Shown here: one piece after another, positions 19,210 through 36,594 of the stretch
How positions within the stretch are numbered: the first letter of the stretch is position 1
How the letters are laid out: every line of letters begins with the position of its first letter
Origin: an uncultured Verrucomicrobia subdivision 3 bacterium
GTDB taxonomy: Bacteria; Verrucomicrobiota; Verrucomicrobiia; Limisphaerales; UBA11358
DNA length: 64,000 nucleotides
Direction of reading: 5' to 3'
Assembly: GCA_903918885.1 (NCBI GenBank)
Contig: CAIXFY010000050.1
Span: forward strand, 1 to 64,000
Program-made: the position numbers and the translations under genes
Notes under the pieces: generated by a model
Seen by the model: the letters and a program-made list of their open reading frames with translations, nothing else
What the model was told of the DNA's origin: nothing
Database searches by the model: none

Positions 19210-19229
19210 CCTTAAGGAATCGTGAAGCC
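19210..19229 (-). promoter_or_regulatory. Candidate response-regulator box 1
   Basis: Read toward the receiver and Spy-like genes, the sequence is GGCTTCACGATTCCTTAAGG: two half-sites, CTTCAC and CTTAAG, five bases apart, the spacing of OmpR/PmrA-type direct-repeat boxes. Eleven bases after CTTAAG comes TAGATT, a plausible -10. Nearly the same sequence occurs at 36575-36594 and 36629-36646 around the two-component operon. Confidence 0.6.
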
Positions 19230-19282: not shown

Positions 19283-20695
19283 TCATCTGCGCGGCAGCGA
19301 ACAACTATCGGCCACGGTTCTGTCCGGAGCGGCTTTGACGTATTCCACCTTGACGATTTCCGGCGACACCGTGACGCGCACGTGGCCGGAGTTGCCGAGG
19401 AAAATCCCCTGCTTATAGCCGTAAGTTTGCAAATCGCGGATACGATCATTGCCCGCAAAGCTCGGCTGCGGAATCATGACGTAGGGCAGACCGTCGAGTT
19501 CCTGCCGCGCGTAAAAATTGTCATGCGCGCGGAAGACGGCGGTAACGCGGTTTTGCAAAAGCATTTTGTGAACCGGCATTGGCCAGCCGGGACGATACGA
19601 CGCAAAGCCTTCCGTGCCATCCAAATTTTTTCCACCCCATTCGTTGAACCCGGCGATCTCCACGCCGCCACGCGAGGCTTGATCACCAGCCAGCAGGTTA
19701 TGGAGAAACACAAATTTATATTTCGCCGAGCTGCCCGCCAGCGTTTTGGCGAGCCAGTCGTATTGCTCGCGACCGAGTGACCATGACCAGCCGTCGTTGT
19801 TGCGTCCGCCGGAACGAAGCGAATAACGATACGGATCCAGCACGACAAACAACGCATCGCCCCAAGTCCACGCGTAATAATTTTCCAGCAGACCGGAAAC
19901 CGCAAGCCGCGTGGCGTCGCCGGAATAAAATTCATCCGGTTCGGGATTGGGAAAATATTTTTTGCGCGCGGCATTGGACTGGACGGCGAGGCTGTTCGGC
20001 GAGCCGTCGTCGTAACGGCTGGCTTCGCCGTCGTGAACGCCGAGCGCGAGGAACAACGGACATCCGAGTTGGTTAAGATAATAACGCTGCGCGCGATATT
20101 GCTGCCAAGCCTCGTCGCGCGTGGCGTGCTTGTCGGTCATGAACAGATTGCCGAGATCAATGTGGAAATCCGGCGCATCGGCGCGGATGTTGGCAAGCGA
20201 CTGTTCATACACCGGCGCGCTGGTGTGTTCGTCCAGATGCACGTCCGCCGTCATCGTGAAAGTGAAACTGCTGCCCGACGAACGCGCGGTGTGGAAAGAA
20301 AATTCCGGGCTGTTCGTAAACGTCTGCGCGCCGGAAGTTCGGAAACGAAGCTGGTAATAATATTTGGTATCCGCTTTCAGTGGGGAGATTTTAAATTCCG
20401 TCGGCGTGCCATTTTTTAACTGTTTCAACGGCGTTTGCTCAACGCATTTGCCGGATTGATTGCCATAAACCACGCATGCTTCCATGTCGCGATAAGCCAA
20501 TACGCTGATGGTGACGGAATGGTTTTCCGGTCGCGCGAGAATTAAATCGTAATCGCGCTTCGGCACGGTGACATGAAAAACATTTGTGCCCGAAGGCGCG
20601 CGATGGCCGTGGTCGCCATCCGGCTTCGAGCTTTCGGCAAAAACAGAAACGCAGCCAGCAATCACCAAAAAAACAGCCGTCAAAGTTTTACGCAT
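19283..20695 (-). CDS. Secreted metallophosphatase-like protein with degenerate metal site
   Basis: A 470-residue exported paralogue of the two neighbouring calcineurin-like phosphoesterases: signal peptide MRKTLTAVFLVIAGCVSVFA, an FnIII-like N-terminal domain as in purple acid phosphatases (about 40-145), and the phosphoesterase domain (about 150-440). The first metal motif survives (ADVHLDE) but others have changed: DLGNLFM for GDxxD, LGVHDGE for GNH, and RAHDNFYA for GHxH, while its two paralogues keep all of them. It may have lost catalysis or bind a different ion. Its start overlaps the preceding gene's stop by 8 bases, and it is the last gene of the eight-gene string. Confidence 0.8.
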   Translation of the reverse strand: MRKTLTAVFLVIAGCVSVFAESSKPDGDHGHRAPSGTNVFHVTVPKRDYDLILARPENHSVTISVLAYRDMEACVVYGNQSGKCVEQTPLKQLKNGTPTEFKISPLKADTKYYYQLRFRTSGAQTFTNSPEFSFHTARSSGSSFTFTMTADVHLDEHTSAPVYEQSLANIRADAPDFHIDLGNLFMTDKHATRDEAWQQYRAQRYYLNQLGCPLFLALGVHDGEASRYDDGSPNSLAVQSNAARKKYFPNPEPDEFYSGDATRLAVSGLLENYYAWTWGDALFVVLDPYRYSLRSGGRNNDGWSWSLGREQYDWLAKTLAGSSAKYKFVFLHNLLAGDQASRGGVEIAGFNEWGGKNLDGTEGFASYRPGWPMPVHKMLLQNRVTAVFRAHDNFYARQELDGLPYVMIPQPSFAGNDRIRDLQTYGYKQGIFLGNSGHVRVTVSPEIVKVEYVKAAPDRTVADSCSLPRR

Positions 20696-22232
20696 GGTGC
20701 TCCTTCGCCTTCACCGTGTAGCTGTGCGCGATGTCGCCGGTTTTGTTTTGCGCGGTTTCATCCTTCGGCAAAAAGCTGCGGACATATTCCACTTTCACAT
20801 TTTTCGGCGAAACCGTGACGCGCAAGTGGCCGGAGTTCGGCAGCTTCACGCCCGATTGATAGCGGTCGGCGTTGTAGGTCTGGTAGCCGTGATCGGCAGG
20901 CATCGGCACTTCCTGATAAATAATTCCGTCGCGCTGTTGTTGGCAATAAAGATGGTCGTGGCCCTGAAAGAAAATCGTCACGCCGTGTTTGGCCATGAGC
21001 TGATGCACCGGCAATTCCCAGCCCAGCCGCCGTTGCGTGAATTCCCAGTCGCCGCGCTTGTTCTTGCCGCCCCATTCATACAAATCACATTCGTCCACGC
21101 CGCCGCGACCCGAACCCATGACGTGATGCGCGAAAACAAATTTATATTTCGCCTTGCTGGCTTCGAGCGTGCGCTTGAACCACTGATACTGCGCGTCGCC
21201 GAGCGTGAGCGTCCACCAATCGCGATCATGACCCTTGCCGCCCTTGCCGCCGCCCGCGTCTTGCTCGCGAAAACCGCTGTCCACCTGTGCGGACGAATGC
21301 CAGTAATTGTCGAGGATTACGAACAGCGCGTCACCCCAAGTCCATGCACAATAATCTTTCCGCAGGCCGATGGCGGGTAACGGCTCGGCGTCGCCGGAAT
21401 AAAATTTGTCCGGCGACGGCGTGGGATAAAATTGATTGCGCGCGTTCTGTGCGTAGACGGCGACCGCGTGGCGCTCGTCGGTCTGGTTAAAATTGAAGAG
21501 CGACGCCTGCTCGTGATTTCCATTCACCAAAAAAACCGGCGCGTTTTGTCCAACGAGACCGAGGAACGGACGTTGCAGCGTGTAGCGCGCGGCGACGGCA
21601 TCGAAATTCACCTCGCGCACCGGCGCGACGCTGAAATCGTCGCCCATGCAGATGTAAAAATCTGGCTGGTCGGCGGCGGCGTTAAGCAGCGTGCGCGCGT
21701 AAAGATTCGGCTCGCTCATCTGCGGTCGTTCCGGGTGAGAATCACCTTGAATCGCAAAAGTGAACGAATTTCCGGCGGCGCGCTGCGTGTGGAATCGGCA
21801 CTCGGGTCGCGCGGTGAAATTTGTTTCACCCGGTTTGCGAAATTGCAGCCGGTAAAAATATTGCATGTCCGATTGCAGCTTGTCGAAAACCATCTCGATG
21901 GGTTTATTCGCCGCAAAAGTGAGCAGTCCGGTTTTGTTGGTGTAATTGCCCGTTGAAGTTCCGTATTCAAAAAAGCCCTCGATGTTTTCCCTGGTCACCG
22001 CGCTCACGGTCACGGATTGGTCGGTGACGCGACCCAGCACGAGCGTCAGCCAGTTGAACGCCGCGAGTTCCGGTGGCAAAACATAATCCGGCGCGTCGCG
22101 CCCTCGTCCGCCGCCGCCTTTCTTGCGCTGGATGTTTCGGGTGTTCGTCTGCCCCAAACCAGAAAGTGAAATCCAGGTGAGCGACCAAGCGAGCAGGCCA
22201 AGAAAGTTCCGCCGATGGGTTTTGAAGCTCAT
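20688..22232 (-). CDS. Tat-exported metallophosphatase (purple acid phosphatase-like)
   Basis: A 514-residue exported phosphoesterase. The start at 22232 gives MSFKTHRRNFLGLLAWSLTW, a twin-arginine signal with RRNFL, suggesting export of a folded metalloprotein; an upstream in-frame extension of 50 codons overlaps the previous gene and was rejected. An FnIII-like domain is followed by the metallophosphoesterase domain with GDSHPE, MGDDFS, NGNHEQ, AHHVMG and QGHDHLY, so the binuclear metal site looks intact. A Gly/Lys/Arg-rich stretch follows the signal. It starts 13 bases after the upstream sulfatase-phosphatase fusion. The substrate is unknown. Confidence 0.85.
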   Translation of the reverse strand: MSFKTHRRNFLGLLAWSLTWISLSGLGQTNTRNIQRKKGGGGRGRDAPDYVLPPELAAFNWLTLVLGRVTDQSVTVSAVTRENIEGFFEYGTSTGNYTNKTGLLTFAANKPIEMVFDKLQSDMQYFYRLQFRKPGETNFTARPECRFHTQRAAGNSFTFAIQGDSHPERPQMSEPNLYARTLLNAAADQPDFYICMGDDFSVAPVREVNFDAVAARYTLQRPFLGLVGQNAPVFLVNGNHEQASLFNFNQTDERHAVAVYAQNARNQFYPTPSPDKFYSGDAEPLPAIGLRKDYCAWTWGDALFVILDNYWHSSAQVDSGFREQDAGGGKGGKGHDRDWWTLTLGDAQYQWFKRTLEASKAKYKFVFAHHVMGSGRGGVDECDLYEWGGKNKRGDWEFTQRRLGWELPVHQLMAKHGVTIFFQGHDHLYCQQQRDGIIYQEVPMPADHGYQTYNADRYQSGVKLPNSGHLRVTVSPKNVKVEYVRSFLPKDETAQNKTGDIAHSYTVKAKEHHA

Positions 22233-22245
22233 GGGCAAAAGCAAG

Positions 22246-25200
22246 TCACGGGTTGAACAGCGCGCGATAAAAGCGGCGCTGAAAATTGGTTGTCTCGGTG
22301 TCAGACCAGAGCAGCGGCGAGACGGAGAGGTTGGTGGAAAAGACGTTCGTCCAATTGATGAGATTCGTCGAAGCTTGCACAATGTAAGTCTGGCCGGTCG
22401 TGCCGACGATGGAAAATTGCACGCAACCGCCGGTCAGCATCGTGCCCGCCAACACTGGCGGCGGATTGGTCGGTGCGGGAATACTGTAGCTGTAGGCCAC
22501 CATGCGGTTGGTTTTGCCGACGCCCTCGTCCGCCGGACGGTAGGAGCGCACATAATCCACAATGGCATTGGTCGGAGAGATGGTGACGCGCAGATGGCCG
22601 GAGCTGCCGTAGAGGACGCCGTTGGTGTAGTTGTAATTTGGGTCGGTCGCGGAATTGACCGAGTTATACGGGTAGTGACTCGGCTGCGGCACTTCCTGAT
22701 AGATGAAGTCCGGGTTGCCGTTGGTGTTGCCGCTCGCGAAATAATCCTGCTTCACATACAGGTGGTCGTGGCCGTGGAAAAAGACCTGCGCCCGATTGGT
22801 GATAAGCAAATCGCGAATGGGCATGGGCCAGCCGGGGCGGTGTGCGGCAAAACCCGGCGTGCCGTTGGTGTTCAAACCGCCCCACTCGAAGTAAGGTGAA
22901 AATTCCAGTCCGCCGCGTGCGGTCGAGTCAAAGCTGCCGCCGATGAGGTGGTGGGCGAAGATGAATTTGAATTTTGCGGTGCTGGTTTCGAGCGTGGACT
23001 TGAGCCAGAAATATTGATTCGTGCCAAGCGTCCACGCCCATGGGTCTTTGGATTTGCTGACGCCTTGGTTGCTATACCAGAACGGGTCGAGCACGACGAA
23101 CAGCGCATCGCCCCACTCGAAGGCGTAGTAGCCGTCGCGCGGATCTTGCTGGTAGGCATCGGTGTTGGTCGCGCCGGAATAAAATCCGCCAGGAACCGGG
23201 CAGGGATAATACAGTTCGCGCGCGCTGGCGGCCCACACCGGCGGGTTGGTGTGCGGCGAAGTGTTGTCCAGCCACCAGCCCAATTCCGGATCGTGATTGC
23301 CGTCCACAAGAAACAGCGGAACGGAGTGTCCGGAGATGTTGAAGAACTGGTTGCGGACGGCGGCGCACGCGTCGATGATGCCCGGCTGCGTCATCGTGTA
23401 AGGATTGGTGGACGCATATTTTTCGCCCATGAACGTGTCGCCGAGATCGATTAAAAAATCCGGCTGGTCGGCAAGGACATTGGTGAGCGTTTGTTGCCAG
23501 ATGGAAGGAACTGTGCCGGGGTTGTCGTTGTAATGCGGGTCGGCCTCGATGTCGAAAGTGAACGTGCTGCCGCGCGCGCGTTGCGTGGCAAACGTGCGTT
23601 CCGCTCCGGCGCTGAAAGGCGCGCTGCCGTTGGTTGAAAAGCGCAGACGGTAAAAAAATTTCTGGTTGCCCTGAAGCTGGTTGAAGATGAACGCCGTGGG
23701 GACGGTGGCCGCGACGAGATTTGTCGTGGTCTGGTTCGTGTAAATGCCCGATTGCGTGCCGCACTCCAGATAGGCTTGCAGGTCGTTGCTCGCGAGAACG
23801 CTCACGGCGATGGAGCTGGCGGTGGGGCGACCGAGCAACACGTCATACGCGGTGAAGATGTTTGTGTCAGCAACCCCGCTGGCGTTCGTGACAGTGAGAA
23901 CGGCGGGCAGGCTGTTCGTGCTCGTGGGCCAATTGACAGCCTTGTCGGTCACCACCACGTCGTAGGTTGCAGCGTCGGTTGCGGAGATATTGGTCAGGTC
24001 GAGCCGGGTAAGATAAACGCTCGTATCCACCGTCGTGTAGTTTGTGGCCGTGAGAATGTTCGTTCCGTTTTTCCGCCACTGAACGGAGAACTGCTTGGGA
24101 TACACCGTGGTCATCGCCCAGAATGTCACATTGCTGCCCGCCGCCACGGTCTGGCTTTGCGGATGCACGCCGATATAGGGCGGATAGGCTTCCGCCGTGA
24201 TGTTTCCGTAATCCGCCGTCAACGTCGCCACGACGTTCGAGTAGGCAGGCACGTTGATCAGGTCCGTCGTCTCGTAAGGATCGGCGATGATGTCGAACAG
24301 CAAGTTGGTGAAAGCGTTGGCCGAAATCTTGTCGCGGATGAGCTTGAACATCGTGAGGCTCGGGCCGTTGCTGAACACGTCGAACACGCCGCTGCCGCCG
24401 CTGCTGCCGGAAACGAGCGGCACGCCGCGATAGTTCGTGGGATTGAACGCGCCGTTTGTCGCCGTGAGCAGCAACGGCCACATGTTCACGCCGTCGAAGG
24501 GCTTCGGGTTCAGCGGCGTCACGCCCACCGCCGCGCAGATGGTCGGAAACCAGTCGCCCACCCAGACGAATTGCTGGCAGTTCGTCACGCCCGCTGGCAG
24601 CACGCCCGGCCAGCGGATCGCCGCCGGGGTGTGGATGCCGCCGTCATACAAATCGCCCTTCGTGCCACGCAGCGGCGTGTTCAGCGAGCCGACCGCGTTG
24701 TCGCCGCCGTTGTCGCCGAAATAAACCACCAGCGTGTTCGTCGTAATGCCTTCGCTGTCGAGCGCGGCGAGCACGCGACCGAGCGCGACGTCTTCCTGAT
24801 CAATTGCCGCGTCAAGCGTGCGCCGCGTCGTGTCGGCAATGCCCGTGTATTTGCTGATGAAATTGGTCGCCGCGCTCACCGGGCCGTGAACGGCGTTGAA
24901 CGCGAGATACAGAATCACCGGCTTCGACGGGTCGCGCTGTTGCAGCAGTTGCACGGCCTTGTCCGCCAGCAAATCGGAAGACCAGCCCGCGTCCAGATTC
25001 GTCTGGCCGTTCAGCCACCAATCCAACAGGCCGTTGTCCTGACTGATGTGCGTGAAATAATTGATCGCGCCGGTGTATTGTCCGTAGTGGATGTCCCAGC
25101 CGCGATTCTGCGGCTGGTAATCAGTATTTTCGCGGATGACCGGGTAGCTAACGCCGTTAATGACGGTGTTGGAAGCGGTGTTGTAAAGCCCGCCGAGATG

Positions 25201-25848
25201 CCATTTGCCACACATGAACGTCTGATAGCCCGCCGCCTTGAACGTGACCGGCATGAGGTGTTCGTGCAAATCAAGCCCGTGGGAATTGTTGACGCCGGTG
25301 CGGATGGGGTTGCGCCCGGTCATCAACGTCGAACGCGTGACGCTGCAAACCGGCGTGGGATAAAATCGTTCCAGCCGGATGCCTTCGCTGCCGATCCGAT
25401 CCATGTTCGGCGTGGGCATCTCCGCGCCGTGACAGCTCAAATCGTGATAACCCTGATCGTCGGTGACGATGATGAGGACGTTCGGCTTGAGCGAGCGGAC
25501 GAATACCGTGAACGACTGCGTCGCGCTCAAGTTCGGTGAGCCGTTGTCGGTGACGACAACGCTGAAGAAGTTTGACGTGCCGGAATTATTCGTGGTCGTC
25601 AGCCACGCGATTACGCCGGTGTTCGTGTTGATTGTCGCTCCGCCGGGCGCGGTTAGAAGGCTGAAGGTGAGTTGCTGCGCGGGAACGTCCGCGTCGCTCG
25701 CGACGTTGGTGACGGAAAGAGTTTCGCCGCCGTTGAGGACGCGATTGGTCAGCGCCGACAAGGTGGGCGGCGTGTTGGTCGCCTCGGCGCGGAAAATTCC
25801 GGCGCAGAGAACGGCCAGCCAAATCCAGTTGTTAAAAAACTTCGGCAT
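22246..25848 (-). CDS. Secreted sulfatase / purple acid phosphatase-like fusion
   Basis: A 1200-residue exported protein combining two hydrolases. Order: signal peptide (1-23), cadherin/Ig-like domain (about 25-118), type I sulfatase domain (about 121-540, with VTDDQGYHDL, GKWHLGG and VYFGDNGGDN), Ig-like domain (about 555-655), FnIII-like domain (about 665-765), metallophosphoesterase (about 770-1090, with ADPHYND, LGDTFM, DGNHDP, AHHLIG, HGHDHLY), and a C-terminal beta domain ending RRFYRALFNP. The sulfatase active-site motif is C168-S-V-T-R instead of the usual C-x-P/A-x-R, so formylglycine formation is uncertain. It starts 3 bases after the upstream gene's stop. Joint action on sulfated and phosphorylated substrates is inferred only from domain content. 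Confidence 0.88.
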   Translation of the reverse strand: MPKFFNNWIWLAVLCAGIFRAEATNTPPTLSALTNRVLNGGETLSVTNVASDADVPAQQLTFSLLTAPGGATINTNTGVIAWLTTTNNSGTSNFFSVVVTDNGSPNLSATQSFTVFVRSLKPNVLIIVTDDQGYHDLSCHGAEMPTPNMDRIGSEGIRLERFYPTPVCSVTRSTLMTGRNPIRTGVNNSHGLDLHEHLMPVTFKAAGYQTFMCGKWHLGGLYNTASNTVINGVSYPVIRENTDYQPQNRGWDIHYGQYTGAINYFTHISQDNGLLDWWLNGQTNLDAGWSSDLLADKAVQLLQQRDPSKPVILYLAFNAVHGPVSAATNFISKYTGIADTTRRTLDAAIDQEDVALGRVLAALDSEGITTNTLVVYFGDNGGDNAVGSLNTPLRGTKGDLYDGGIHTPAAIRWPGVLPAGVTNCQQFVWVGDWFPTICAAVGVTPLNPKPFDGVNMWPLLLTATNGAFNPTNYRGVPLVSGSSGGSGVFDVFSNGPSLTMFKLIRDKISANAFTNLLFDIIADPYETTDLINVPAYSNVVATLTADYGNITAEAYPPYIGVHPQSQTVAAGSNVTFWAMTTVYPKQFSVQWRKNGTNILTATNYTTVDTSVYLTRLDLTNISATDAATYDVVVTDKAVNWPTSTNSLPAVLTVTNASGVADTNIFTAYDVLLGRPTASSIAVSVLASNDLQAYLECGTQSGIYTNQTTTNLVAATVPTAFIFNQLQGNQKFFYRLRFSTNGSAPFSAGAERTFATQRARGSTFTFDIEADPHYNDNPGTVPSIWQQTLTNVLADQPDFLIDLGDTFMGEKYASTNPYTMTQPGIIDACAAVRNQFFNISGHSVPLFLVDGNHDPELGWWLDNTSPHTNPPVWAASARELYYPCPVPGGFYSGATNTDAYQQDPRDGYYAFEWGDALFVVLDPFWYSNQGVSKSKDPWAWTLGTNQYFWLKSTLETSTAKFKFIFAHHLIGGSFDSTARGGLEFSPYFEWGGLNTNGTPGFAAHRPGWPMPIRDLLITNRAQVFFHGHDHLYVKQDYFASGNTNGNPDFIYQEVPQPSHYPYNSVNSATDPNYNYTNGVLYGSSGHLRVTISPTNAIVDYVRSYRPADEGVGKTNRMVAYSYSIPAPTNPPPVLAGTMLTGGCVQFSIVGTTGQTYIVQASTNLINWTNVFSTNLSVSPLLWSDTETTNFQRRFYRALFNP

Positions 25849-25851
25849 AAA

Positions 25852-28800
25852 TTATCTCGTCGCTTTGACCCGATAGAATAGGTTCGAGCCAGTGTTTCCG
25901 CCGGTGTGGATGACCGTGTTGGTGATCGTGGTCGGCGGCGTGTTGGTAAAGACGGCAGTCCATTGGCCAGAGGCAAGCGAGGACGAGCATTCGAGATATT
26001 GCCACGCGTTGTTGCCGCCGATCCAAGTCAAGTTGATGTTGCCGCCGGCGACTTGCAGGCCGGTGATGGCCAGGCGCGACGCGGCGTTCGTCGGGTTCAG
26101 GTCGGCAATATAATTTTGCAGCGTGGTACTGCCGTTGGCGTTGATGAAGCTCGCGACGGACGCCAGCGTGGGATCGAAGCCGTAGCGCAACGCCCAGCCG
26201 TCGGGGATGCCATTGTTCGCAGACGACCACGCGGTGGGATCGAGGCCGTAGCTGAATTCCTGAAGGTCGGTCAGGCCGTCGCCGTCGTCGTCGCTGGTGG
26301 CGGTGACGGCGGAGAGCGAGCCGAAGTGCGAACGCACCCAAACATCCGGAAGGCCAAGCCCAACCGTGTCGGTAGCCGCGCCGGTGTAAGTTTCAATCGT
26401 TCCGCGCGGCGTCAAATCCTTGCCGGCAAAGCCACTGAAGTTGGTCGCATAGCGGTGAACTTTGAAAACTTCGTTGAGTGTCTGTAACGGAAAGTTGGTG
26501 TTGCTGTTTGGGTCGAACGGGACGGTCGTGCCTTGCGCTAGCGGCGTGGTTGTGATGGGGTTGATATATTTCCAGACAGTTTGCGCGTTGCTGTTGACTT
26601 CAAACAGCGTGCCGCGAATTCCGAAAGTGATGAGCGTGTCGCCGTTCGGTTCGCGTTCCACGCCGCCGATGTCCGCACCAAAGAAATTCGTCGCAGGATT
26701 GTTGGTGTATTGCCAAAAATAACTCGTCGGCCCGAAATAGGTGTTGCCGACACGCGAATAAAAGCCGTTCGCATCCACCGGCGGGACAATTTCGTCAATC
26801 GAAGTGTAAGCCGGATTAGCGCGATTGATTCCGTTGTCGTGAATCAAAATGTGGCCCGCGCCGGGACAGTTAGTCGGAATCCAGGTCGCGCAGTGTTGTT
26901 GCCAGAGCATTTCCTTGTGCGTCGCGTCGGTGAGATTGTTGATGGCCGGATTGCCCCAGCGATACAGTAAATCACCGCCTTTACCGTAACGACCGCCAGT
27001 GTGGCCGGCGGCTTGCGCAGTGGTGGTGCCATGGTCAATCACCCAAATCTCGCACTGGTTGCGTGAGCTGATGAGAATTTGGTCAAGCTGCGGATTGTAA
27101 TCAATGCCATTGAAGTGATTCCAGAACTGCTGGAGCGGACCGCTATTGGCGTTGATCAGTTCAATGTGATTGCTCGGCACGCCGTAGTTGGCCTTGGTCA
27201 CGTCGTTGCTCTGAACGAGGTGATCCCAGACATGCCATTGCCAGACGATTGTGCCGTTGGTCGTGCCATTTTTTGCAGCGGGCTGCACTTCAATAACGGC
27301 GTCGGGCAGCAAGAAACCGCCGTTGGTGGTCACGCTGATTTGCGTTTGTGAATTCGTCTGAAAACCGGCAGCGAGAACATCCGCCAAAGGCTTCTCCTCA
27401 CACATGATCATCAGCAAATTGCCGTTTGGCAAAAGCGCGATGTCGTGATGGCTCAGGTTCGTGATCGTGTTCTGCTCGTAGCACCAGACCAGATTGTTTT
27501 GCCAATCGCGTTCCTCCACTCGACCGCCTTCGCCGCCGCCGGTGTTGAGCAGAGCTTGCCCGCCCAAGGAACAGGTCCGCAACAAGTGGCCGTTCGGCAT
27601 CAAGTATTCCGACCGGCCCGGATTGTAGGTGGTCGTCCACTTGTGGACATATTGGCCGCTGTTGTTGATTAGATAAGTGGTGTTGGCCTGCATCGGCGAG
27701 AACAGCGTGTAACCGGATTGCACGCCGGAAAGATTGGTGAAAAGCCCCACCGTCTGCGAAAGCTTTTCCTGCCGCATCACGCGGAAACCTGTTTGACTCC
27801 AATCGCCGTAAGGATCGCCAGGCGGACCGCCGCCGAGAAAATAAGACGGGTCGCGATTCGACACACGAGCGTGGCCGTAATCGTAGTCGCTCGCGGAATT
27901 GCCGTTCCACCAAGTGCCGCCGCGCAGACAGCGGTAGGGCGCGCCGTTCGTGCTGGTGGGAAACAAATCCGCGTTCGCCAGCACTGGGCCGGGCGGATTC
28001 GTCACGATGTTGTTGTTCGTGCAGTAGGCGTAGTAGGCGTTTTGATACCAGTCGTTGCACCATTCCCAGACGTTGCCGCCCATGTCGTAAAGGCCGTAGG
28101 GATTCGAGCCGTCGCTGGTCTGGTAAGTCGTCTGGCTTGCCGGCCAGTTGTAATCCGACTTGAGCCGTAGCGCGCCGTTGTAGAAACCGACGGGCGTTGT
28201 GCATGGGTAATCGTTCGTCGTCTCGAACGGGTCGCCGGAGTTCTGCCAGTTGGCGAAGCTGCCATCGTAATTCGTGTTCATGCCCCACGGGAACATGACG
28301 TAGGGATTCGTCTGGCCGCCGTGCGCGGCGTATTCCCATTCAGCCTCGGTCGGCAAACGAAAACCGTTCTTCGTGAAATCCACGTCGCCGTTGGTGAGAT
28401 TGTAGCACGAATCGAAACCGTTCGTCTGGCTCAACCAGTTGCAATATGCAATCGCGCCGAACCACCGCACACTCGTAGCCGGATGCAGATCGCGGCTGTT
28501 CAGGACGGTGAAAGAGTTGTTCAGAAACTGGATGCGGCTGGAGGACGACGCATCGCGCGTGTAGAAAAACACATTCGTCCCGCCGACGGCATAAACGATG
28601 TTCGTGCGCACCTCAATCAAACCCTGTGCCAGCGCGCTGTTCAGATAGTCGCAATACTCGCGGCAGGTAACGAGCGTCGTGGACATATAGAGCGGCGAGA
28701 TATAGACGTTGTGAACGGGGATTTCGTCCGTGTAGTGCTTGAGGTCAATGTATTCGAACTGGTCGCCCATGAGAAAATTACCGCCGGGAATGCGGACATA

Positions 28801-29409
28801 TTGTGCGCTGAACGGGATGACGACATTCGACGTGCCGATGGTGGTCGTGAGCGTGATCTGATCGAGCCAGACATGGGCGTTCGCCTGCCCGCCGGCGAAC
28901 TGGAATTGTAGGAACAGATTGCTGACGAGGTCGGCAGGCGGGAGCGCGTAGGTATAGCTGCGCCAGGTGTGATTCGTGCCGTTCGTCTCATTGAGCCGCG
29001 TCGTGAAACCCGCGCCGTTGTTGAGCAGCAGCGCCCAGCCGCCGTTGTTCGTCAGGCCAGTGGTGTTGATGTAAAAAGTCAGCGTCGCGCTGTCACCGCG
29101 CGCATCAATGCCCGCCGCCGTGGTGATGAAACTGTCCGTCAGATTCGTCGTGCCAACCTTAAATGAAAGTCCATTAGTATTGCCACTACCGTAGTTGGCG
29201 TTGGCGTTTTGCTCGAATGGGTTACTGTAACCATTTGTGAAAACCGTCCAGGCATAGTTGCAACCGCCGCCCGCCCATGGTTTGACTGTGTTGGTTGCCA
29301 TTGTTTCTTGAAACCCCACCACATTCGTCGTCGCCGCACAAGCTTGCCGGTCCCCTAACCAGACAAAAACCAGCATGGTCGACAAGATGAGATGGATGGA
29401 ACGTTTCAC
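25852..29409 (-). CDS. Secreted fusion of FGE-like and arylsulfotransferase-like domains
   Basis: An 1185-residue exported protein. The start is GTG at 29409, overlapping the previous stop as GTGA and giving the signal peptide VKRSIHLILSTMLVFVWLGD; the longer open frame upstream is non-homologous. Domains: a beta-rich N-terminal region (about 30-195), a formylglycine-generating-enzyme/SUMF1 fold (about 204-547; GGNFLMGDQ, RLPTEAEWEYAAHGG, DMGGNVWEWCNDWY, RCLRGGTWW), an arylsulfotransferase-like propeller (about 555-985; HHDIALLPNGNLLMI), a TSP3-like calcium segment (DDDGDGLTDLQEF) and a C-terminal beta domain. After RGGTWW the two catalytic cysteines of true FGEs are absent, so the first domain is probably not a sulfatase-activating enzyme. 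The sulfatase gene follows directly. Confidence 0.85.
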   Translation of the reverse strand: MKRSIHLILSTMLVFVWLGDRQACAATTNVVGFQETMATNTVKPWAGGGCNYAWTVFTNGYSNPFEQNANANYGSGNTNGLSFKVGTTNLTDSFITTAAGIDARGDSATLTFYINTTGLTNNGGWALLLNNGAGFTTRLNETNGTNHTWRSYTYALPPADLVSNLFLQFQFAGGQANAHVWLDQITLTTTIGTSNVVIPFSAQYVRIPGGNFLMGDQFEYIDLKHYTDEIPVHNVYISPLYMSTTLVTCREYCDYLNSALAQGLIEVRTNIVYAVGGTNVFFYTRDASSSSRIQFLNNSFTVLNSRDLHPATSVRWFGAIAYCNWLSQTNGFDSCYNLTNGDVDFTKNGFRLPTEAEWEYAAHGGQTNPYVMFPWGMNTNYDGSFANWQNSGDPFETTNDYPCTTPVGFYNGALRLKSDYNWPASQTTYQTSDGSNPYGLYDMGGNVWEWCNDWYQNAYYAYCTNNNIVTNPPGPVLANADLFPTSTNGAPYRCLRGGTWWNGNSASDYDYGHARVSNRDPSYFLGGGPPGDPYGDWSQTGFRVMRQEKLSQTVGLFTNLSGVQSGYTLFSPMQANTTYLINNSGQYVHKWTTTYNPGRSEYLMPNGHLLRTCSLGGQALLNTGGGEGGRVEERDWQNNLVWCYEQNTITNLSHHDIALLPNGNLLMIMCEEKPLADVLAAGFQTNSQTQISVTTNGGFLLPDAVIEVQPAAKNGTTNGTIVWQWHVWDHLVQSNDVTKANYGVPSNHIELINANSGPLQQFWNHFNGIDYNPQLDQILISSRNQCEIWVIDHGTTTAQAAGHTGGRYGKGGDLLYRWGNPAINNLTDATHKEMLWQQHCATWIPTNCPGAGHILIHDNGINRANPAYTSIDEIVPPVDANGFYSRVGNTYFGPTSYFWQYTNNPATNFFGADIGGVEREPNGDTLITFGIRGTLFEVNSNAQTVWKYINPITTTPLAQGTTVPFDPNSNTNFPLQTLNEVFKVHRYATNFSGFAGKDLTPRGTIETYTGAATDTVGLGLPDVWVRSHFGSLSAVTATSDDDGDGLTDLQEFSYGLDPTAWSSANNGIPDGWALRYGFDPTLASVASFINANGSTTLQNYIADLNPTNAASRLAITGLQVAGGNINLTWIGGNNAWQYLECSSSLASGQWTAVFTNTPPTTITNTVIHTGGNTGSNLFYRVKATR

Positions 29410-31073
29410 GGTTGATGAGAATGATTGCCTTCGGGTAGGTTGCCCTTCGGTAAATCCATTTCGCTGGCAATCATCCTCGTTCGGTCGTAAGTGAACTTCA
29501 ACGCGGAGCTGTCGAGCACAAGTTCTTTCATGGCGGTGAGCAAAACATTGCGGCTGACGGCTGACGGCGGCAAGGAAATTTTCACCGGCGCAGACAGCGC
29601 ATAAACAGTGATAAAATATGTTTTCGTGCCCGGCCCTTTCGAGTGCGGCGGCGCGTATCCGAGATTGCGATTGACGCTGTTGTTGCCCGCGACACCGATG
29701 CTGGTGGCATTTTTTGCGAGGCTGTGGACGCTCGCGGGAATGTTGTAGAGCGTCCAATACCACTTCACATCGCCCGGGCCGGGAAAGTGATCCATGATGA
29801 CCGCGAAATATTTTGTGCCCGCCGGCGCACCGCTCCATTCGAGCGGCGGCGAAGCGCTCGCGCCATCGCCGGTGAATTCCACCGGCAACGCGCCGCCATT
29901 TGTCACCACCGAACTTGTCAGTAGAAAAGTGCCGCTGTGCTTAGCGTTAATCATCACCGGAGCTACAGCCGCTGGCTGATCGCGGCGTGGCTGATCGCGT
30001 TGAGCATCCGGCGGAGGACGCTGACCTTTGAGATCATTTTGCGGCGGTGGATTTTTTTCGTGGTCAGGTCGAAAATTTGTCGGATATGTTTTCGTCGTCT
30101 TCTGGCCGGACGCGTCGGTGAAATCAAACCTCACCGCGCCAGCCTCTGCGCCGTAGTGCAACGTTACCGGCTGGCCGTTGAGTGTGTAAGTCAGCGTGTA
30201 GCTTTTCCCATCCGCCTCGGTTTTGAAATCCGTGATGACTGCACCGCGTAACGGCGTCGTGGCCGGCCGCACGGGTTGTGCGCGTGGTTGAGGGTCGACT
30301 TGTCCGTCGCGCTCCGTGACTGTGCCGTGGAAACCGCCGTTGACGTAAGGATATTTTGTCGAGGCGTGATAATGATAGCCCAGCAGCTTCGTGGTGTGGC
30401 CGTCAAAAGCATCCAAATCGTTTGGGCGTGTGCCATCCGGATCGGCCAGTCCGTAAATCGGATAACCATCCAGCGCGAATGCGATAGGGTTGTTCGAGCC
30501 GATATATTGCTGCAAATGCAGCGGCGCGGCGTGATAATGATAATCATCCGCCCGACCCGCGTGGCCGCCAAAGTGGTCGAGTTCGCCGATTTCAGCGGAG
30601 ATTTCGCCGCGATTGTTCTGGGGATTGAAAATGGGAATGCCGTTCACAGCAATGGCAATGGCTCCGCGCAGGAAATTATTTTTGATGCTTTGCGGTTCCG
30701 TGGCTGGAACCGGATTCAGTGGAAACCGCCAGGCATTATCCCCCGTGTAATTTTGCGGCAGCGGCACCTGTTGCTGCCAGGCGGTGATACCCGTCATCAT
30801 CTGATCCGAAACCATTCCATCCGACTCGACATAGAAAAACCTGTTGTCCCAGTGCGTCCGAACATTGTTGGCAAACGGGGCAAACGCCGTGGCGATGGAG
30901 GCACCACGGTTCGTTGTGTCTGGGGTTAAGTGCAGAAGGATATTGGTTGGTGGCGTTATGCTGGGATTGTAATGTGCGGTCAATCCGTCATGCGCAGGGT
31001 TGCCGGTGAGGTGGGCGGTGCATGTGGTAGAGGCAAATATCCCCAAACACAAAACCACTAGGTTTTTTATCAT
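29406..31073 (-). CDS. Secreted YHYH-domain / PEBP-like fusion protein
   Basis: A 555-residue exported protein. The start at 31073 gives signal peptide MIKNLVVLCLGIFASTTCTA; an upstream in-frame Met lies in the spacer. The N-terminal half is a YHYH domain with two His-rich motifs, DYHYHAAP (about 177-184) and GYHYHAS (about 232-238), and FALDGYPIYG between them. A Pro/Arg/Gln-rich linker (about 345-385) leads to a phosphatidylethanolamine-binding-protein domain of the YbhB/YbcL type (about 390-540; SPPLEWSGAPAGTKYFAVIM and DHFPGPGDVKWYWTLYNIP). The YHYH family has no established function; clustered His and Tyr suggest metal binding. The stop overlaps the next start by 4 bases. Confidence 0.82.
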   Translation of the reverse strand: MIKNLVVLCLGIFASTTCTAHLTGNPAHDGLTAHYNPSITPPTNILLHLTPDTTNRGASIATAFAPFANNVRTHWDNRFFYVESDGMVSDQMMTGITAWQQQVPLPQNYTGDNAWRFPLNPVPATEPQSIKNNFLRGAIAIAVNGIPIFNPQNNRGEISAEIGELDHFGGHAGRADDYHYHAAPLHLQQYIGSNNPIAFALDGYPIYGLADPDGTRPNDLDAFDGHTTKLLGYHYHASTKYPYVNGGFHGTVTERDGQVDPQPRAQPVRPATTPLRGAVITDFKTEADGKSYTLTYTLNGQPVTLHYGAEAGAVRFDFTDASGQKTTKTYPTNFRPDHEKNPPPQNDLKGQRPPPDAQRDQPRRDQPAAVAPVMINAKHSGTFLLTSSVVTNGGALPVEFTGDGASASPPLEWSGAPAGTKYFAVIMDHFPGPGDVKWYWTLYNIPASVHSLAKNATSIGVAGNNSVNRNLGYAPPHSKGPGTKTYFITVYALSAPVKISLPPSAVSRNVLLTAMKELVLDSSALKFTYDRTRMIASEMDLPKGNLPEGNHSHQP

Positions 31074-31116
31074 AAAAAAAGCATGGTAACTTTGAACATT
31101 CCAATGGATAAAAAAT

Positions 31117-32919
31117 CTACGGCGCATTATTTTTAAACTGCGCATCGGTCAAAGTATTCAAGAACGCCACCAGCGCCCGCTTGTCCGCCGCGCTCAACGG
31201 CACGCCGCCGTCGGGATGCTTGGCGAGATTCGGGTCGAGCGTCGCACTGCGTTTCAAACCAGTTGCGTAATGTTCAACGACTGCTTCCAGCGTTTGGAAA
31301 CGGCCGTCGTGCATATATGGAGCGGTCAGCGCCACATTGCGTAGCGACGGCGTGGCGAATTTTCCATCATCTGATTTCTTGCCGGTAATTTTGCCGCGAC
31401 CCAAATCGGCGAAAGTATCATCCAGTCCGTTGTTGGCGAAACTCTGGCTTTGGAACAATGGGCCGCCGTGGCAATGAAAACAGTCCGCGCCGAATTGTCC
31501 GCGACGCGGATCGTATTCGGTGGAGAACAGTTCAAACCCGCGCTGTTCCTCCGGCGTGAATTTCCCCTCGCCGCGCAGCACGCGGTCGAACTTGGCGTCG
31601 AAAGAGGTGAGCGTGAGTAGATAATTTTCCAGTGCGAGTGAAATCTTTTCCGCCGTGATCTCCGGCGAGCCGAAGGCAGTTGTGAAGAGTGCGGGGTAAT
31701 CATTGGTGGGGCGCGTCACTCCGTGCGCGCCGTCGGCGGGCAGGGGACTGCCCGCCCTACCTGTTGTCAGTTTCACAACCAAATTCGTCAGCGCCTCGTG
31801 CATCTCAATCGGATTTTGAATCGGCTGCAATACCTGTTCGCGCAGACTTTTCGCGCGGCCATCCCAGAAAAATTCCTTCTTCCACGCGAGATTGAATAGC
31901 GGCATGGAATTGCGTTCGCCGAATTTTCCCTCCGCGCCGCGCGCCGTTTTGCGTCCGTCGGTAAAGGCTTTGGCCGGCGCGTGACAGTCGGCGCAGGATT
32001 GCTGGTCGTTGATGGACAGGCGTGGGTCGAGGAATAGTTTTTTGCCCAGCTCCACGCGTTCGACGAGCAGCGGGTTGTCGCGCGGCAAGTCGGGAATCGG
32101 AAAGGTCGCGCTCATCTGAAATTCATACGGTGTAAATTTCGTTGGCAAGAAAAGTGGTTTTGGATGGGCAACAGCGATTTCCGTTTCGCTTAACTGTGTG
32201 ATGCGGTGAACGCGGAACGCGCCCGCCAGATTTCTCACCAACGCGGCGGAAATCGGGTCGCCGTCGCGCGAGTGTGTGGACGAACCGTCCTTGCCAAACG
32301 ACAGCGGACGCGGCGCGTTCAGCAAGGTTGCCAAATCAAAATCCAGTTCCAGCTTGGTTTCATTTGTGATTTGTAGCGATGCGGCCAGCGTGACGCAAAC
32401 GGCGTTGGTATCGCGCGCCAGATGATACGCCCAGCCGTCGAGTTCGCCGGTGGCGTTGCGCCACAAACCTTCGAGCGCGAGAAAAATAAATCCGCCCTGC
32501 CAGCTCCAATGCAATCCGTTCAGATTCGGGTTCAGTGGATGCGCGGCGGGAAACTTGGCTACATCCGCGTGGTTCAAATTGGTGTTCAGGCCGACGAGAA
32601 AACGGAGCGAGCGATATTCGCCGGCCGGAATTTCCAGCCGCTTGGAGTCGCGATTCTGCTCGTAATCAAACCACGCGACGGAATTGGAAAGTTCCAGCCA
32701 CGAACCGTCGTTGCGTTGCAAAGCGAAATCGCTGGCAAGCCAGCTCACGCGCGTCACGGAAAAGGTTTCGCCCGCCGAAGTCTGATAGCGCAGCGACGCG
32801 GGCTGAAGATTTTCGCCGGAAACTTTCGGCGTGATTTGAAGTTGCAGCGTGGCGGCGGAAGCCGGATTGACCGCGCACAAGCCGGTGAGCCATAAAATAA
32901 TTTTCCGCGCCAGCTTCAT
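31117..32919 (-). CDS. MbnP-like copper protein fused to MbnH-like diheme cytochrome c peroxidase
   Basis: A 600-residue exported protein, start at 32919 overlapping the previous stop (ATGA), signal peptide MKLARKIILWLTGLCAVNPA. Residues about 23-240 match the MbnP family (VSWLASDFALQRNDGSWLEL; LNGLHWSWQGGFIFLALEG). Residues about 270-600 are a diheme peroxidase of the MauG/MbnH type with two heme-c sites, CADCH (309-313) and CFHCH (480-484), and the PYMHDGRF segment. In methanobactin clusters these are separate partners, the diheme enzyme oxidising a Trp of MbnP to create a copper site; here both are one chain. Residues about 388-405 look like an in-frame repeat insertion. Confidence 0.85.
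   Translation of the reverse strand: MKLARKIILWLTGLCAVNPASAATLQLQITPKVSGENLQPASLRYQTSAGETFSVTRVSWLASDFALQRNDGSWLELSNSVAWFDYEQNRDSKRLEIPAGEYRSLRFLVGLNTNLNHADVAKFPAAHPLNPNLNGLHWSWQGGFIFLALEGLWRNATGELDGWAYHLARDTNAVCVTLAASLQITNETKLELDFDLATLLNAPRPLSFGKDGSSTHSRDGDPISAALVRNLAGAFRVHRITQLSETEIAVAHPKPLFLPTKFTPYEFQMSATFPIPDLPRDNPLLVERVELGKKLFLDPRLSINDQQSCADCHAPAKAFTDGRKTARGAEGKFGERNSMPLFNLAWKKEFFWDGRAKSLREQVLQPIQNPIEMHEALTNLVVKLTTGRAGSPLPADGAHGVTRPTNDYPALFTTAFGSPEITAEKISLALENYLLTLTSFDAKFDRVLRGEGKFTPEEQRGFELFSTEYDPRRGQFGADCFHCHGGPLFQSQSFANNGLDDTFADLGRGKITGKKSDDGKFATPSLRNVALTAPYMHDGRFQTLEAVVEHYATGLKRSATLDPNLAKHPDGGVPLSAADKRALVAFLNTLTDAQFKNNAP
31735..31756. repeat. Palindromic repeat inside the MbnP-MbnH fusion gene
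   Basis: GGCGGGCAG and CTGCCCGCC form a perfect 9-bp stem with a GGGA loop. On the coding strand it sits in a stretch encoding RAGSPLPADGAHGVTRPT, low-complexity residues between two conserved peroxidase blocks (residues about 388-405). The reading frame is kept. Confidence 0.7.
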
Positions 32920-34199
32920 CTGGAATCGTAGCCGCCATTGCCGGCATTCCAAGAGATTGTCGTTGTTTTGGCGGTGGCGGTTTTGAGGTTGGTAACGGGA
33001 TGCGCCAGAAAATTGGTCGTCACCGGTTCGTGAACGCCAGTGACGAGACAGCCAATCGGATAGCCATGAAAGCGCCGGCCCATGTTGTAAGGATAAACGG
33101 GTTGGCCGTTGACATCAATCGTGGTGAAGTAAGCATAAGTTCCCTGCGGAAATTCCGGCGTGACGCACCAGCGGCCGTTGAGCTCATCGAGGTCGAAATC
33201 TTTGCCCAAAGTTTTCCCGCAGTCGCCGACATACGCGTAGTCCTCGATGTAATGACCGAGCGGATATTTTTCGCTGACATTTGGCCCGGTTTGAAAATCT
33301 GGCAGCACGGCGGAACGATTTTGTTCGCGCGCTTCCCAAGTGGGTAAAGTGCGGCGACCGGTTTGTGCGAGATTGTCGGTGCCGTTCTCGCCGTTGCGCA
33401 AAGCGAAACCAGAAATCATTCGGCGCACGCCGCTGGCAGGATTGGTGGGGTTGGAAAAACCATAAGGCCCGTAAACCGGATAGCCGTCCTGCATCCAGCC
33501 GAGAATCGGCGAATGCTTGGTCGGCGCGCTGGAACTTTCGCGGTAAGTTTTTGTCGCGGAATCAAAATCCACATGGTCGCCGAGTTCGTAGCGCAGCGCG
33601 ATAGGTTCGACATGATAGTGATAAGTGCCGCGATTTTGCTGGTGCGCGAGCGCGGCGTCGAAAGTCCGACCCTCGTTCACCAGCGCGTCGCGGTTCCAAA
33701 CGCGGTCACCTTGGCCGATGCCGGCGCGCGGGCTGGCGTCCTGATGCTTTTGGTGCGAGTAGGAAAACGCATCACCAGCGTCGAACATCCGCACGCCATC
33801 CACGAACATTCCAATTTCGCCAAGGCGGTTGAAATTTTGCGTCGGCTGAACTTTCGGATGGCGCGGCAGCGCAAAAATAAAATGCTGATCCGTCGGCAGG
33901 TTAGGAAAAAATCCGTTCTGCCACGGCCCCATGATTTGGCTGCCGAGGCCGGTGCTGAAAACATAAATCCAGTTGGACGACGACATGATTTTTTGCACGC
34001 CGCAATACGCTGGCTGCGATTGCGTGTTGCGGCCGTTGCTCCAAGTCGTTTCGGTCTGGCCGGAATTTTTCTCCGCGACGGTGCGGTAGATTTGCGCGAA
34101 CCTGCCGGAGTCGAGCGTGAACCACGAAGTGATTTGCGGGTCAGCAAAAGCTTTTGTGCTCAGCACACAGAAAATTGCGGCGGAAAAAATAAATTTCAT
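32916..34199 (-). CDS. Secreted YHYH-family protein
   Basis: A 427-residue exported protein with signal peptide MKFIFSAAIFCVLSTKAFA; the start at 34199 is chosen over a 132-codon upstream extension that only mirrors the previous gene in another frame. It carries TYHYHVEP (YHYH at about 193-196), the preceding GPW and FVDGVRMFDAGDAFSY blocks, then HSPILGWMQDGYPVYGPYG and a Tyr/Cys-containing C-terminal half (CVTPEFPQGTYAYF). It aligns along its length with the central part of the upstream gene product, so the two are tandem paralogues. Function unknown; the His/Tyr cluster suggests metal or redox chemistry. The stop overlaps the next gene by 4 bases. Confidence 0.82.
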   Translation of the reverse strand: MKFIFSAAIFCVLSTKAFADPQITSWFTLDSGRFAQIYRTVAEKNSGQTETTWSNGRNTQSQPAYCGVQKIMSSSNWIYVFSTGLGSQIMGPWQNGFFPNLPTDQHFIFALPRHPKVQPTQNFNRLGEIGMFVDGVRMFDAGDAFSYSHQKHQDASPRAGIGQGDRVWNRDALVNEGRTFDAALAHQQNRGTYHYHVEPIALRYELGDHVDFDSATKTYRESSSAPTKHSPILGWMQDGYPVYGPYGFSNPTNPASGVRRMISGFALRNGENGTDNLAQTGRRTLPTWEAREQNRSAVLPDFQTGPNVSEKYPLGHYIEDYAYVGDCGKTLGKDFDLDELNGRWCVTPEFPQGTYAYFTTIDVNGQPVYPYNMGRRFHGYPIGCLVTGVHEPVTTNFLAHPVTNLKTATAKTTTISWNAGNGGYDSR

Positions 34200-34212
34200 G
34201 CAGTTGGCAAAG

Positions 34213-36546
34213 TTAATTGATGGTGAAATAACTCGTGAGCGTGTAAGGCGGTGGGCCGGAGTTGAAAGTGACGACAATCGTTTGTGCGCCGGTGGGCGTG
34301 TAGCCGGACGGAATCGTGAACAGCGCCACCACCGAGCCTTGCACCGTGTAGCTCGTGCTGATGGCGGTAATGCTGCCCACGGTGACGCTCGTGATGGGCG
34401 CACCGGCAGGCGGGGCGTTGGGCGGATAACTGCCGCCGGTTGGCAGCGTGATGGTGAGCAGCACGGATTGACCGCGATAGGCTGCGCCGCCGGGAGCGAC
34501 GGCGTTGGTGGCAAACAGCGTGGTGCCCGCGCTGTCGTAACTCGCCACGGATGTGCGTCCGGCGCGGTAAAATCGTTTGTCGAGCGCGCTGACATCGTCG
34601 AGATAAGTGCTGCCGGGGCCGTTCGTGGCGTAGGTGTTGATGGTGAGACCGCCGGCCAAAGAAGTCCACGAGGTCAAGTTCGTAGAGCCTTCGATTTGAT
34701 AACTGCCGCCGTCCACGCCCGTCCATTTGAGCGAGACAAGGCCACCGTTGATGTAAGTAGGCGTGTTCATCTTGCTTACGAGATTTGTGCCGCCAAGAAA
34801 ATTGGTGATCGCGTTTTCGGTGACGGAAATGGCGCTCACTGTGCCGCCGCTCGGCGTGCCGTAGTAGCCACGTCCGATGTTGTAGGGAAATGTCGGCGTG
34901 CCGTTGCTGCTGATGCTGACAAAGTAGGCGTAAGTGCCGTTGGGAAATTCCGGCGTGACGCAGTAGCGCCCGTTGTATTCGTCGAGGTCGTAGGTGTTCG
35001 TGCCGGGCGCGATGCCATGATCACCGAGATAATCGTTATCCTCCATGTAGCGGCCGAGAACATAAATGCCAGCGACATTCGGGCCGACTTGATTGGAGAC
35101 GACATTGAACAAGCGCGCCGACCACGCGGGAATGGTTTTGCGTCCGTTCGCCGTGAGATTGCTCGTGCCGAAAGTTCCGTTCCGCAAAATGTAGCCGGAA
35201 ATCATCCGTCGGATGCCGCTGCTGGCGTTGTTGGAAACGCCGTAACCGTAAGGTCCGTAAACCGGATAGCCGTCCGCCGTCCACGCGAGAATCGGCGAGT
35301 GCTTGGTCGGCGTGTTGGTGGACTCGGTATAAATTTTTGTCACGGAATTAAAATCCACATGGTCGCCGAGCTGGTAGCGCAGCGCGGGCGGATTAGCGTG
35401 ATAATGATATTGTCCGCCCGCCTGATGCGCGTTGTTCGGGTCGAAGCTCGCGCCTTCGTTCACATACGCGTCGCGGTTCCAATAGCCGGTGATGTTCTGC
35501 GCGTCCACATTGGAAACCGTGCTGTAAGAATACGCGTCCCAACTGTTGAACATCGCCGCGCCGTCCACGAAATATCCAATTGGCCCACCGCCGCTCGCGG
35601 TTTTTGTCGTCGGCACGGACGGGCTGCGCGGAATGCGATACATAGTTTTCTGGTTCACCGGCCAGTTCGGAAACGGCTGCGTGTGCTGCGCATTTAGATA
35701 CCACGGCCCCATCACAAAACTGCCCAGCCCCGTGCTGCGGATGTAAACCCAGTTGCTGGAGGAATATATTTCCTGCACGCCGCAATATGCGGGCAGCGAC
35801 TGGATGGTCGTCCCGTTCGTCCACGCTGTCATGGAAACTCCGTTTGTGCGCGACAAATCATTGGTGTAGATGCGCGCGTATTGGCCGGCGTAGGTGGTGA
35901 ACCACGAGTTTGTGCGCGGGTCGGCGGGTAAATTGGTCGCCGTGGTCGTGAACGATGCGTTCAGCACGATGTTCTGGCTGGGCGCGGGCACATCGGTCAA
36001 TTGGAAACTGGAAGTGCTCGTGTTCGTCAATTGCGCGGAATAATTCGCGCCGTTCAGCGAAGCGGTGGTCGCGTCCAGCGCCTGAATTATTTCCGTGCTC
36101 GTTGAATACGGAATGTTTTTCGAGGCGGTCGCGGACGAATTCCAGTTCAAGTTGCCGCCGCCATCCACCGGCCGCACGCCCAATCCGGCGATGCCAAACC
36201 GGACCGAACTCGTCGTCACGCCGCTGGACACGGACACCAACGATGCGGTCAAAGTCACGCCGTATCCATAAACAATCAGATTGCCATTCACGCTGACGCG
36301 CGTGTCGCCATCAAGGATGGAAAATGTCGCCGCCGCGCCGCCGGCATACGGCGACATCGTGACCGCGATGACGACATTCTGGCCGGACGCCGAATCGGTG
36401 AAGGTGTAGTTCTTCGTGAGATTCGTCGCGAGCGAGACGATGGAATCGTAATTGGTGACGCTCGCGGCCTTGGTGTTTTGCGCCAGCGCGGAAAATGCCA
36501 GCACGGTCAGGATCAGAATTTTTTTGAATCGGGTGTTGGTTTTCAT
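34213..36546 (-). CDS. Secreted multidomain YHYH-family protein, first gene of the string
   Basis: A 777-residue exported protein: signal peptide MKTNTRFKKILILTVLAFSA, a Ser/Thr/Asn-rich beta domain (about 30-205), the YHYH domain (about 210-600, motif QYHYHANP with YHYH at about 380-383, then HSPILAWTADGYPVYGPYG and CVTPEFPNGTYAYF), and a C-terminal beta region (about 610-777) resembling Ig/FnIII modules. The YHYH part is a close paralogue of the next gene. It is first in an eight-gene string, 13 bases before the second gene; a candidate regulator box lies about 30 bases upstream. Function unknown. Confidence 0.82.
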   Translation of the reverse strand: MKTNTRFKKILILTVLAFSALAQNTKAASVTNYDSIVSLATNLTKNYTFTDSASGQNVVIAVTMSPYAGGAAATFSILDGDTRVSVNGNLIVYGYGVTLTASLVSVSSGVTTSSVRFGIAGLGVRPVDGGGNLNWNSSATASKNIPYSTSTEIIQALDATTASLNGANYSAQLTNTSTSSFQLTDVPAPSQNIVLNASFTTTATNLPADPRTNSWFTTYAGQYARIYTNDLSRTNGVSMTAWTNGTTIQSLPAYCGVQEIYSSSNWVYIRSTGLGSFVMGPWYLNAQHTQPFPNWPVNQKTMYRIPRSPSVPTTKTASGGGPIGYFVDGAAMFNSWDAYSYSTVSNVDAQNITGYWNRDAYVNEGASFDPNNAHQAGGQYHYHANPPALRYQLGDHVDFNSVTKIYTESTNTPTKHSPILAWTADGYPVYGPYGYGVSNNASSGIRRMISGYILRNGTFGTSNLTANGRKTIPAWSARLFNVVSNQVGPNVAGIYVLGRYMEDNDYLGDHGIAPGTNTYDLDEYNGRYCVTPEFPNGTYAYFVSISSNGTPTFPYNIGRGYYGTPSGGTVSAISVTENAITNFLGGTNLVSKMNTPTYINGGLVSLKWTGVDGGSYQIEGSTNLTSWTSLAGGLTINTYATNGPGSTYLDDVSALDKRFYRAGRTSVASYDSAGTTLFATNAVAPGGAAYRGQSVLLTITLPTGGSYPPNAPPAGAPITSVTVGSITAISTSYTVQGSVVALFTIPSGYTPTGAQTIVVTFNSGPPPYTLTSYFTIN

Positions 36547-36574
36547 AATCGTGCCGTGACTCTAAACAAAGTCA

Positions 36575-36594
36575 CCTTAAGCGAACATGAAGCC
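36575..36594 (-). promoter_or_regulatory. Candidate response-regulator box 2, upstream of the eight-gene string
   Basis: Read toward the YHYH gene at 36546, it is GGCTTCATGTTCGCTTAAGG, agreeing with box 1 at 15 of 20 positions and with both half-sites conserved (CTTCAT and CTTAAG, five bases apart). As in box 1, eleven bases after CTTAAG comes a -10-like TAGAGT. Confidence 0.65.

Follow-up and report, generated by a model that had tools for sequence, protein, structure and literature searches.

The 64,000-nucleotide stretch analysed here (the window; contig CAIXFY010000050.1 of an uncultured Verrucomicrobia subdivision 3 bacterium) carries a string of eight minus-strand genes, g8 to g1, that begins with two YHYH proteins and an MbnP::MbnH fusion. 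We propose, with somewhat more confidence than doubt, that two operons of one two-component regulon of exported proteins fused recently to form this string, and that the core role of the regulon is copper handling. A sequence-only reading of the same DNA had described eight co-directional genes spaced by 13, -4, 43, -4, 3, 13 and -8 bases, and with the gene starts set at the signal peptides the coordinates of g8-g1 reproduce these gaps exactly (Table 1). The domains it named were confirmed by Pfam, the Metallophos match of g1 falling slightly below cut-off, and its claim of signal peptides, one of them Tat-type, agrees with N-termini that, judged by eye, are signal-like, with a Tat-like RRNFLG in g2. 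Its proposal of one conserved eight-gene system did not hold, failing on the criterion that it had itself set, conservation of the gene set in related genomes: the observation stands, and the string itself is peculiar to the source genome, a draft of 2.46 Mb in 85 contigs (91% complete). The close relatives that a GTDB scan found for it belong to Verrucomicrobia subdivision 3, many of these assemblies being lake-derived going by their titles.

The g6-g5 junction, whose 43-bp gap is the widest between any two of the eight genes, occurs in one of 49 genomes of the genus, the source genome alone; 28 places in these genomes match g6 alone, from about position 31134 on, and the YHYH::PEBP part (g5) matches other contigs. 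The same-genus gene order is gltB, gltD, a HemN-like gene, kinase, regulator, YHYH, in some a second YHYH, MbnP::MbnH, small genes and an MFS transporter, and the source locus keeps this order with g5-g1 added between MbnP::MbnH and the small genes. Alignments break at positions 19283 and 31135, which are contiguous in L035, L038 and L034, the two flanks, once joined, can be aligned with L038, L035, L034, L030 and L029 except for a short additional segment where they meet, and the empty site is found in at least five same-genus loci. On these alignments g5-g1 are an insertion, which would have joined the two operons only recently. That the assembly is chimeric is unlikely, because both breakpoints coincide with one and the same empty site and the block retains, at its far end, an apparent vestige of the 3' end of the ancestral mbnPH. 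Both block ends carry a copy of a direct repeat, imperfect and some 25 bp long (19261-19285 and 31135-31160), which is contained in that additional segment; a score this high is reached by about 0.13% of random pairs. This short repeat is the sole sign of a mobile element, with no tRNA at the insertion and no integrase-specific search made, and promoter and terminator scans gave signals no higher than shuffles. The insertion shows regulon members gathered into one operon, for which the states before and after are both available.

The operon g8-g7-g6 (module 1) is old and widespread in Verrucomicrobiota, and it is divergent from a two-component system of the heavy-metal/PmrA type (36715-38888) that the sequence-only reading had overlooked. 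The neighbourhood of YHYH with MbnP/MbnH is a true conserved association, YHYH being found within 3 kb of 33 of the 39 MbnP places. Of 97 relatives, 37 have MbnP and 46 have YHYH, the latter being present in 36 of the 37 MbnP genomes versus 10 of the 60 without MbnP; in a phylum-wide sample of 213 genomes YHYH accompanies MbnP in 11/11 genomes and is found in 10/202 of the others. The genome-level Fisher tests on these counts ignore phylogeny, with samples that cover many genera. A GTDB scan with a YHYH alignment gave 78 loci, nearly all from Verrucomicrobiota by title; where the flank sufficed (56 loci), MbnP/MbnH lay within 3 kb in 36, almost always fused, and a divergent response regulator and kinase were present in many. 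Module 2 as found in relatives comprises YHYH::PEBP, metallophosphatases and a sulfatase, often a fusion of a formylglycine-generating enzyme (FGE)-like domain to an arylsulfotransferase (ASST), and sometimes a multicopper oxidase and a HupE/UreJ permease. Orthologues of g5 sit at other genomic places in relatives, g4 is 80-82% identical in L005-L008, and in some relatives module 2 has its own divergent regulator pair. A distant relative, G050, holds both module types within about 18 kb.

The response regulator is 87-97% identical across the genus, and the region between it and g8 contains two inverted copies of ACCTTAAG-N6-TGAAG that are kept in relatives. The exact pattern occurs three times in the 2.46-Mb source genome, each time at the g8-g1 locus, and over the 49 genomes it is about tenfold commoner than its reversed version (~110 versus ~10). 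Its targets in relatives are the regulator (43), YHYH (25), stand-alone MbnH (4), multicopper oxidase (4), FGE::PEBP (2) and YHYH::PEBP-type genes (2), together with Lcl_C proteins and small EF-hand/LTXXQ proteins. A matrix was built from 44 module-1 sites and applied to 13 module-2 loci that had been picked before the box was known, and it found 11 sites in 218 kb as compared to 1 in reversed sequence and to a mean of 0.65 and a maximum of 4 in 200 permutations of the matrix. Eight of the 11 precede labelled starts by 20-42 nt, and the other three fall a little way inside open reading frame (ORF) calls that are probably over-extended; the genes behind them encode YHYH::PEBP, FGE::ASST, multicopper oxidase, HupE and Lcl_C proteins. 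In G003 and G016 a long cluster running from FGE::PEBP to HupE starts at a box divergent from the kinase gene. As the same box precedes module-2 genes in relatives where the modules lie apart, both gene sets appear to belong to one regulon, which is supported by this held-out sequence test and is undescribed as far as the open literature shows. No own box was found for the module-2 genes of the window, as expected if they are now served by the g8 promoter. Through the box that the halves share in relatives where they are separate, the earlier suggestion that the eight products act jointly outside the cytoplasm has better support than their neighbourhood in the string could give it. In other lineages, YHYH::PEBP-type loci with their own divergent regulator pair (L012, L013, L020, L146, L149 and L151) carry in several intergenic regions a related box with ATTAA half-sites, which suggests that regulator and box diverged together.

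The case for copper is strongest at g6. Its MbnP half scores 104.5 bits with PF20243 (cut-off 27), and both halves fall under the equivalog cut-offs, MbnP with 39.4 bits for TIGR04052 (140) and MbnH with 216 bits for TIGR04039 (362.85). In 63 of 63 distinct fusion copies the MbnP half retains WxW (W138/W140), Glu150, H166 and H216, and the MbnH half two CxxCH and Y551. The best PDB match of the MbnH half is 6e1c (MbnH; E 1e-40), with whose Tyr, which we take to be an axial heme ligand, Y551 aligns. The MbnP half found no PDB match by sequence and was placed by its fold instead: the domain model (pLDDT 95) has the fold of 7l6g (Foldseek E 4e-9, probability 1.0, TM 0.64), which was the only significant Foldseek match, no other family being found. 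The g6 fusion is like the MbnP-MbnH pairs of Methylosinus and others (7l6g, 6e1c) in both domains, the WxW, the two CxxCH, the Tyr position and the MbnP fold, and unlike them in being a single chain beside YHYH, outside a methanobactin operon and below the NCBIfam equivalog cut-offs. Work on Methylosinus is said to have found that MbnH oxidises the first Trp of the MbnP WxW to kynurenine, creating a Cu(I) site. The CorA/CorB and MopE/SACCP systems of methanotrophs likewise have a secreted Cu(I) protein with a MauG-like di-heme partner, the site in CorA and MopE consisting of kynurenine and two His (PMC3912023), and the sequence of MbnP shows no marked similarity to that of either CorA or MopE (PMC3621798). 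A comparison with other phyla, which covered plasmid records, turned up in Deinococcus radiodurans (L203) a row of MbnP, an MbnH-like cytochrome-c peroxidase, a hypothetical protein, CopC and CopD.

Based on these data we propose that the divergent kinase/regulator pair, with copper as its putative signal, would govern the g8 promoter by binding to the CTTAAG-N5-(A/G)TGAAG boxes, and that module 2, inserted behind g6 without its own box, presumably relies on read-through from that promoter, so that the eight genes would be co-transcribed. The MauG-like di-heme half of g6 would act on the MbnP half of the same chain, oxidising W138 to a kynurenine that may form a Cu(I) site together with H166 and H216, and the YHYH proteins would be partner metal proteins in extracytoplasmic copper handling, the role of the regulon that we infer to be most likely. 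As it joins a MauG-like enzyme and the likely substrate of that enzyme, the fusion would offer a convenient single-chain model of kynurenine formation.

The role of YHYH is the least certain part of this mechanism. Three proteins of the string are well over the PF14240 cut-off of 25 (146.9, 123.7 and 55.1 bits). The g7 model, of moderate confidence (AlphaFold2; pLDDT 79.5, pTM 0.82), matched no fold in the PDB. A Pfam-confirmed YHYH::multicopper oxidase in one long protein is found at L117:2244-7442, and the copper reading also fits this fusion as well as the Deinococcus MbnP-peroxidase-CopC-CopD row. A second long protein of the same composition begins at L161:8667, and on a plasmid of Deinococcus sp. 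KNUC1210 (L202) a HupE/UreJ permease follows directly after YHYH, like in several Verrucomicrobiota module-2 loci. A more far-reaching version of the proposal, which we consider quite unlikely, would make YHYH a new class of secreted copper proteins needing a MauG-like di-heme enzyme, with the fusion maturing itself and also oxidising a conserved YHYH Trp within a regulon that responds to metal and governs exported sulfatases, sulfotransferases and phosphatases as well. In either case the constant partner (MbnP::MbnH), the regulator, the DNA box and the co-regulated copper enzymes give YHYH a first functional setting, and its function is now a testable question in cultured Verrucomicrobiota.

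Several observations weigh against copper handling as the core role. The MbnB family (PF05114) was not found in the 91%-complete draft genome, and genes for a copper pump, a TonB receptor or methanobactin were not observed at the locus. MbnP/MbnH are absent from 20 of the 56 YHYH-seeded loci with enough flank, and it is not obvious what role copper would have for the sulfatases, ASST and phosphatases. The regulator pair, whose closeness to the heavy-metal subfamily speaks for the proposal, scores below the curated heavy-metal cut-offs, the response regulator with 229 bits for TIGR01387 (cut-off 279) and 214 bits for the PmrA model (330), the histidine kinase with 283.5 bits for TIGR01386 (292.55), for which relatives reach 241-292 bits and the closest relative 292.0. 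The best-known signals of PmrA are not copper. In the PmrA box the half-sites CTTAAG and NTTAAT are separated by 5 bp (PMC3973317). Our system is like PmrA/PmrB and the CopR/CusR-type systems in its OmpR-type regulator, and its box has the first PmrA half-site and the 5-bp spacing; it is unlike them in its second half-site, TGAAG, in scoring under the curated cut-offs for both and in its regulon of exported proteins. Given this likeness to the PmrA box, a signal other than copper may act on the system. The copper link drawn by the sequence-only reading is supported for MbnP/MbnH and would extend to the rest of the string by inference, and its link to sulfate and phosphate ester turnover goes as far as the co-regulation of those genes.

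The alternative that survives best is one regulon for degrading sulfated or phosphorylated aromatic or humic matter, in which copper is merely a cofactor: sulfatase, arylsulfotransferase and phosphatases would free esters, and the multicopper oxidase and the di-heme enzyme would attack phenols. FGE::ASST, ASST, sulfatase, phosphatase and multicopper oxidase do stand together in one box-led cluster (L005/L175 and L006/L197), and the genome has some 20 further sulfatases, many in an island on contig C40. That island, however, has no exact box, the most constant members of the regulon are the regulator pair and YHYH rather than hydrolases, and MbnP with its invariant WxW is a copper-binding family; on balance we find this alternative unlikely. 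A chance joining of two unrelated operons, the 11.85-kb block behind g6 sharing no function with it, would explain a junction confined to one genome and the clean empty site, and yet the module-1 box stands close before module-2 gene starts in relatives with the modules apart and G050 has the two module types near each other, so that this account, already weakened by the held-out box test, is improbable. We give marginally less weight still to a reading in which the YHYH proteins would hydrolyse peptidoglycan in a Zn-dependent manner, a role proposed for them in jumbo-phage tails, and the regulon would serve envelope remodelling under metal stress, for although YHYH carries conserved His and Asp, the box is PmrA-like and a Zn-dependent hydrolase is the only literature prediction found for the family (PMC7824862), no known hydrolase fold was found for the g7 model, and constant pairing with a copper/kynurenine pair and fusion to a multicopper oxidase are unexpected of a wall hydrolase.

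Table 1. Features of the locus, with positions in the window.
Feature	Position	Strand	Description	Evidence or remark
g8	34213..36546	-	secreted YHYH protein, 777 aa, opens module 1	PF14240 E 1e-35
g7	32916..34199	-	secreted YHYH protein, 427 aa	PF14240 E 9e-43
g6	31117..32919	-	MbnP::MbnH fusion, 600 aa	PF20243 + PF03150 (CCP_MauG)
g5	29406..31073	-	YHYH::PEBP, 555 aa, opens inserted module 2	PF14240 + PF01161
g4	25852..29409	-	FGE-like::arylsulfotransferase fusion, 1185 aa, GTG start	PF03781 + PF05935
g3	22246..25848	-	sulfatase::Ig::metallophosphatase fusion, 1200 aa	PF00884 E 8e-51, PF00149
g2	20688..22232	-	metallophosphatase, 514 aa, Tat-like signal	PF00149
g1	19283..20695	-	metallophosphatase-like, 470 aa, degenerate active site	PF00149 just under cut-off
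inserted block (module 2)	19283..31134	.	11.85 kb, exactly at 3' end of g6	empty site in relatives
response regulator	36715..37365	+	OmpR-type, heavy-metal/PmrA subfamily	TIGR01387, PmrA model
sensor histidine kinase	37353..38888	+	heavy-metal type	TIGR01386
box serving g8 (minus-strand gene)	36574..36592	+	ACCTTAAGCGAACATGAAG	27 nt upstream of g8 ATG
box serving response regulator gene	36629..36647	-	ACCTTAAGGGGAGATGAAG	
third box	19209..19227	+	ACCTTAAGGAATCGTGAAG	serves minus-strand mini-cluster 18230-19187
leader ORF	19095..19187	-	conserved, 30 aa	
receiver-only response regulator	18671..19084	-	137 aa	PF00072
LTXXQ-like protein	18230..18625	-	small, secreted, 131 aa	PF07813 weak, E 0.009

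The third box stands 21 nt before the 30-aa ORF, a distance kept in six genomes, and the family of the LTXXQ-like protein encoded in the same mini-cluster is found behind the box in relatives.

The enzymes of module 2 differ in how well their motifs are kept. The FGE-like domain of g4 reads GGTWWNG and has no Cys at the catalytic GGS-W-L-C position, because of which it is, as judged from the motif, not a competent formylglycine-generating enzyme. In the g3 sulfatase C-S-V-T-R stands for C-x-P-x-R, with the Cys present and the Pro replaced. The metallophosphatase motifs checked were DxH, GD, GNH and GHxH: the phosphatase domain of g3 keeps them (GNHD, GHDH), and those of g2 are intact and kept in 9 of 9 aligned copies. 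The motifs of g1 are degenerate (GVHD, AHDN and DLGN instead of GNHD, GHDH and GD), and GVHD and AHDN are common to one subgroup of its metallophosphatase-like family, whose function may be binding instead of catalysis. The sulfatase island of the source genome (G000:C40:79161-118187) has about 16 sulfatase genes. In two neighbouring genes of another locus (L021:7080 and 11181), YHYH of the g5 type is fused straight to a sulfatase.

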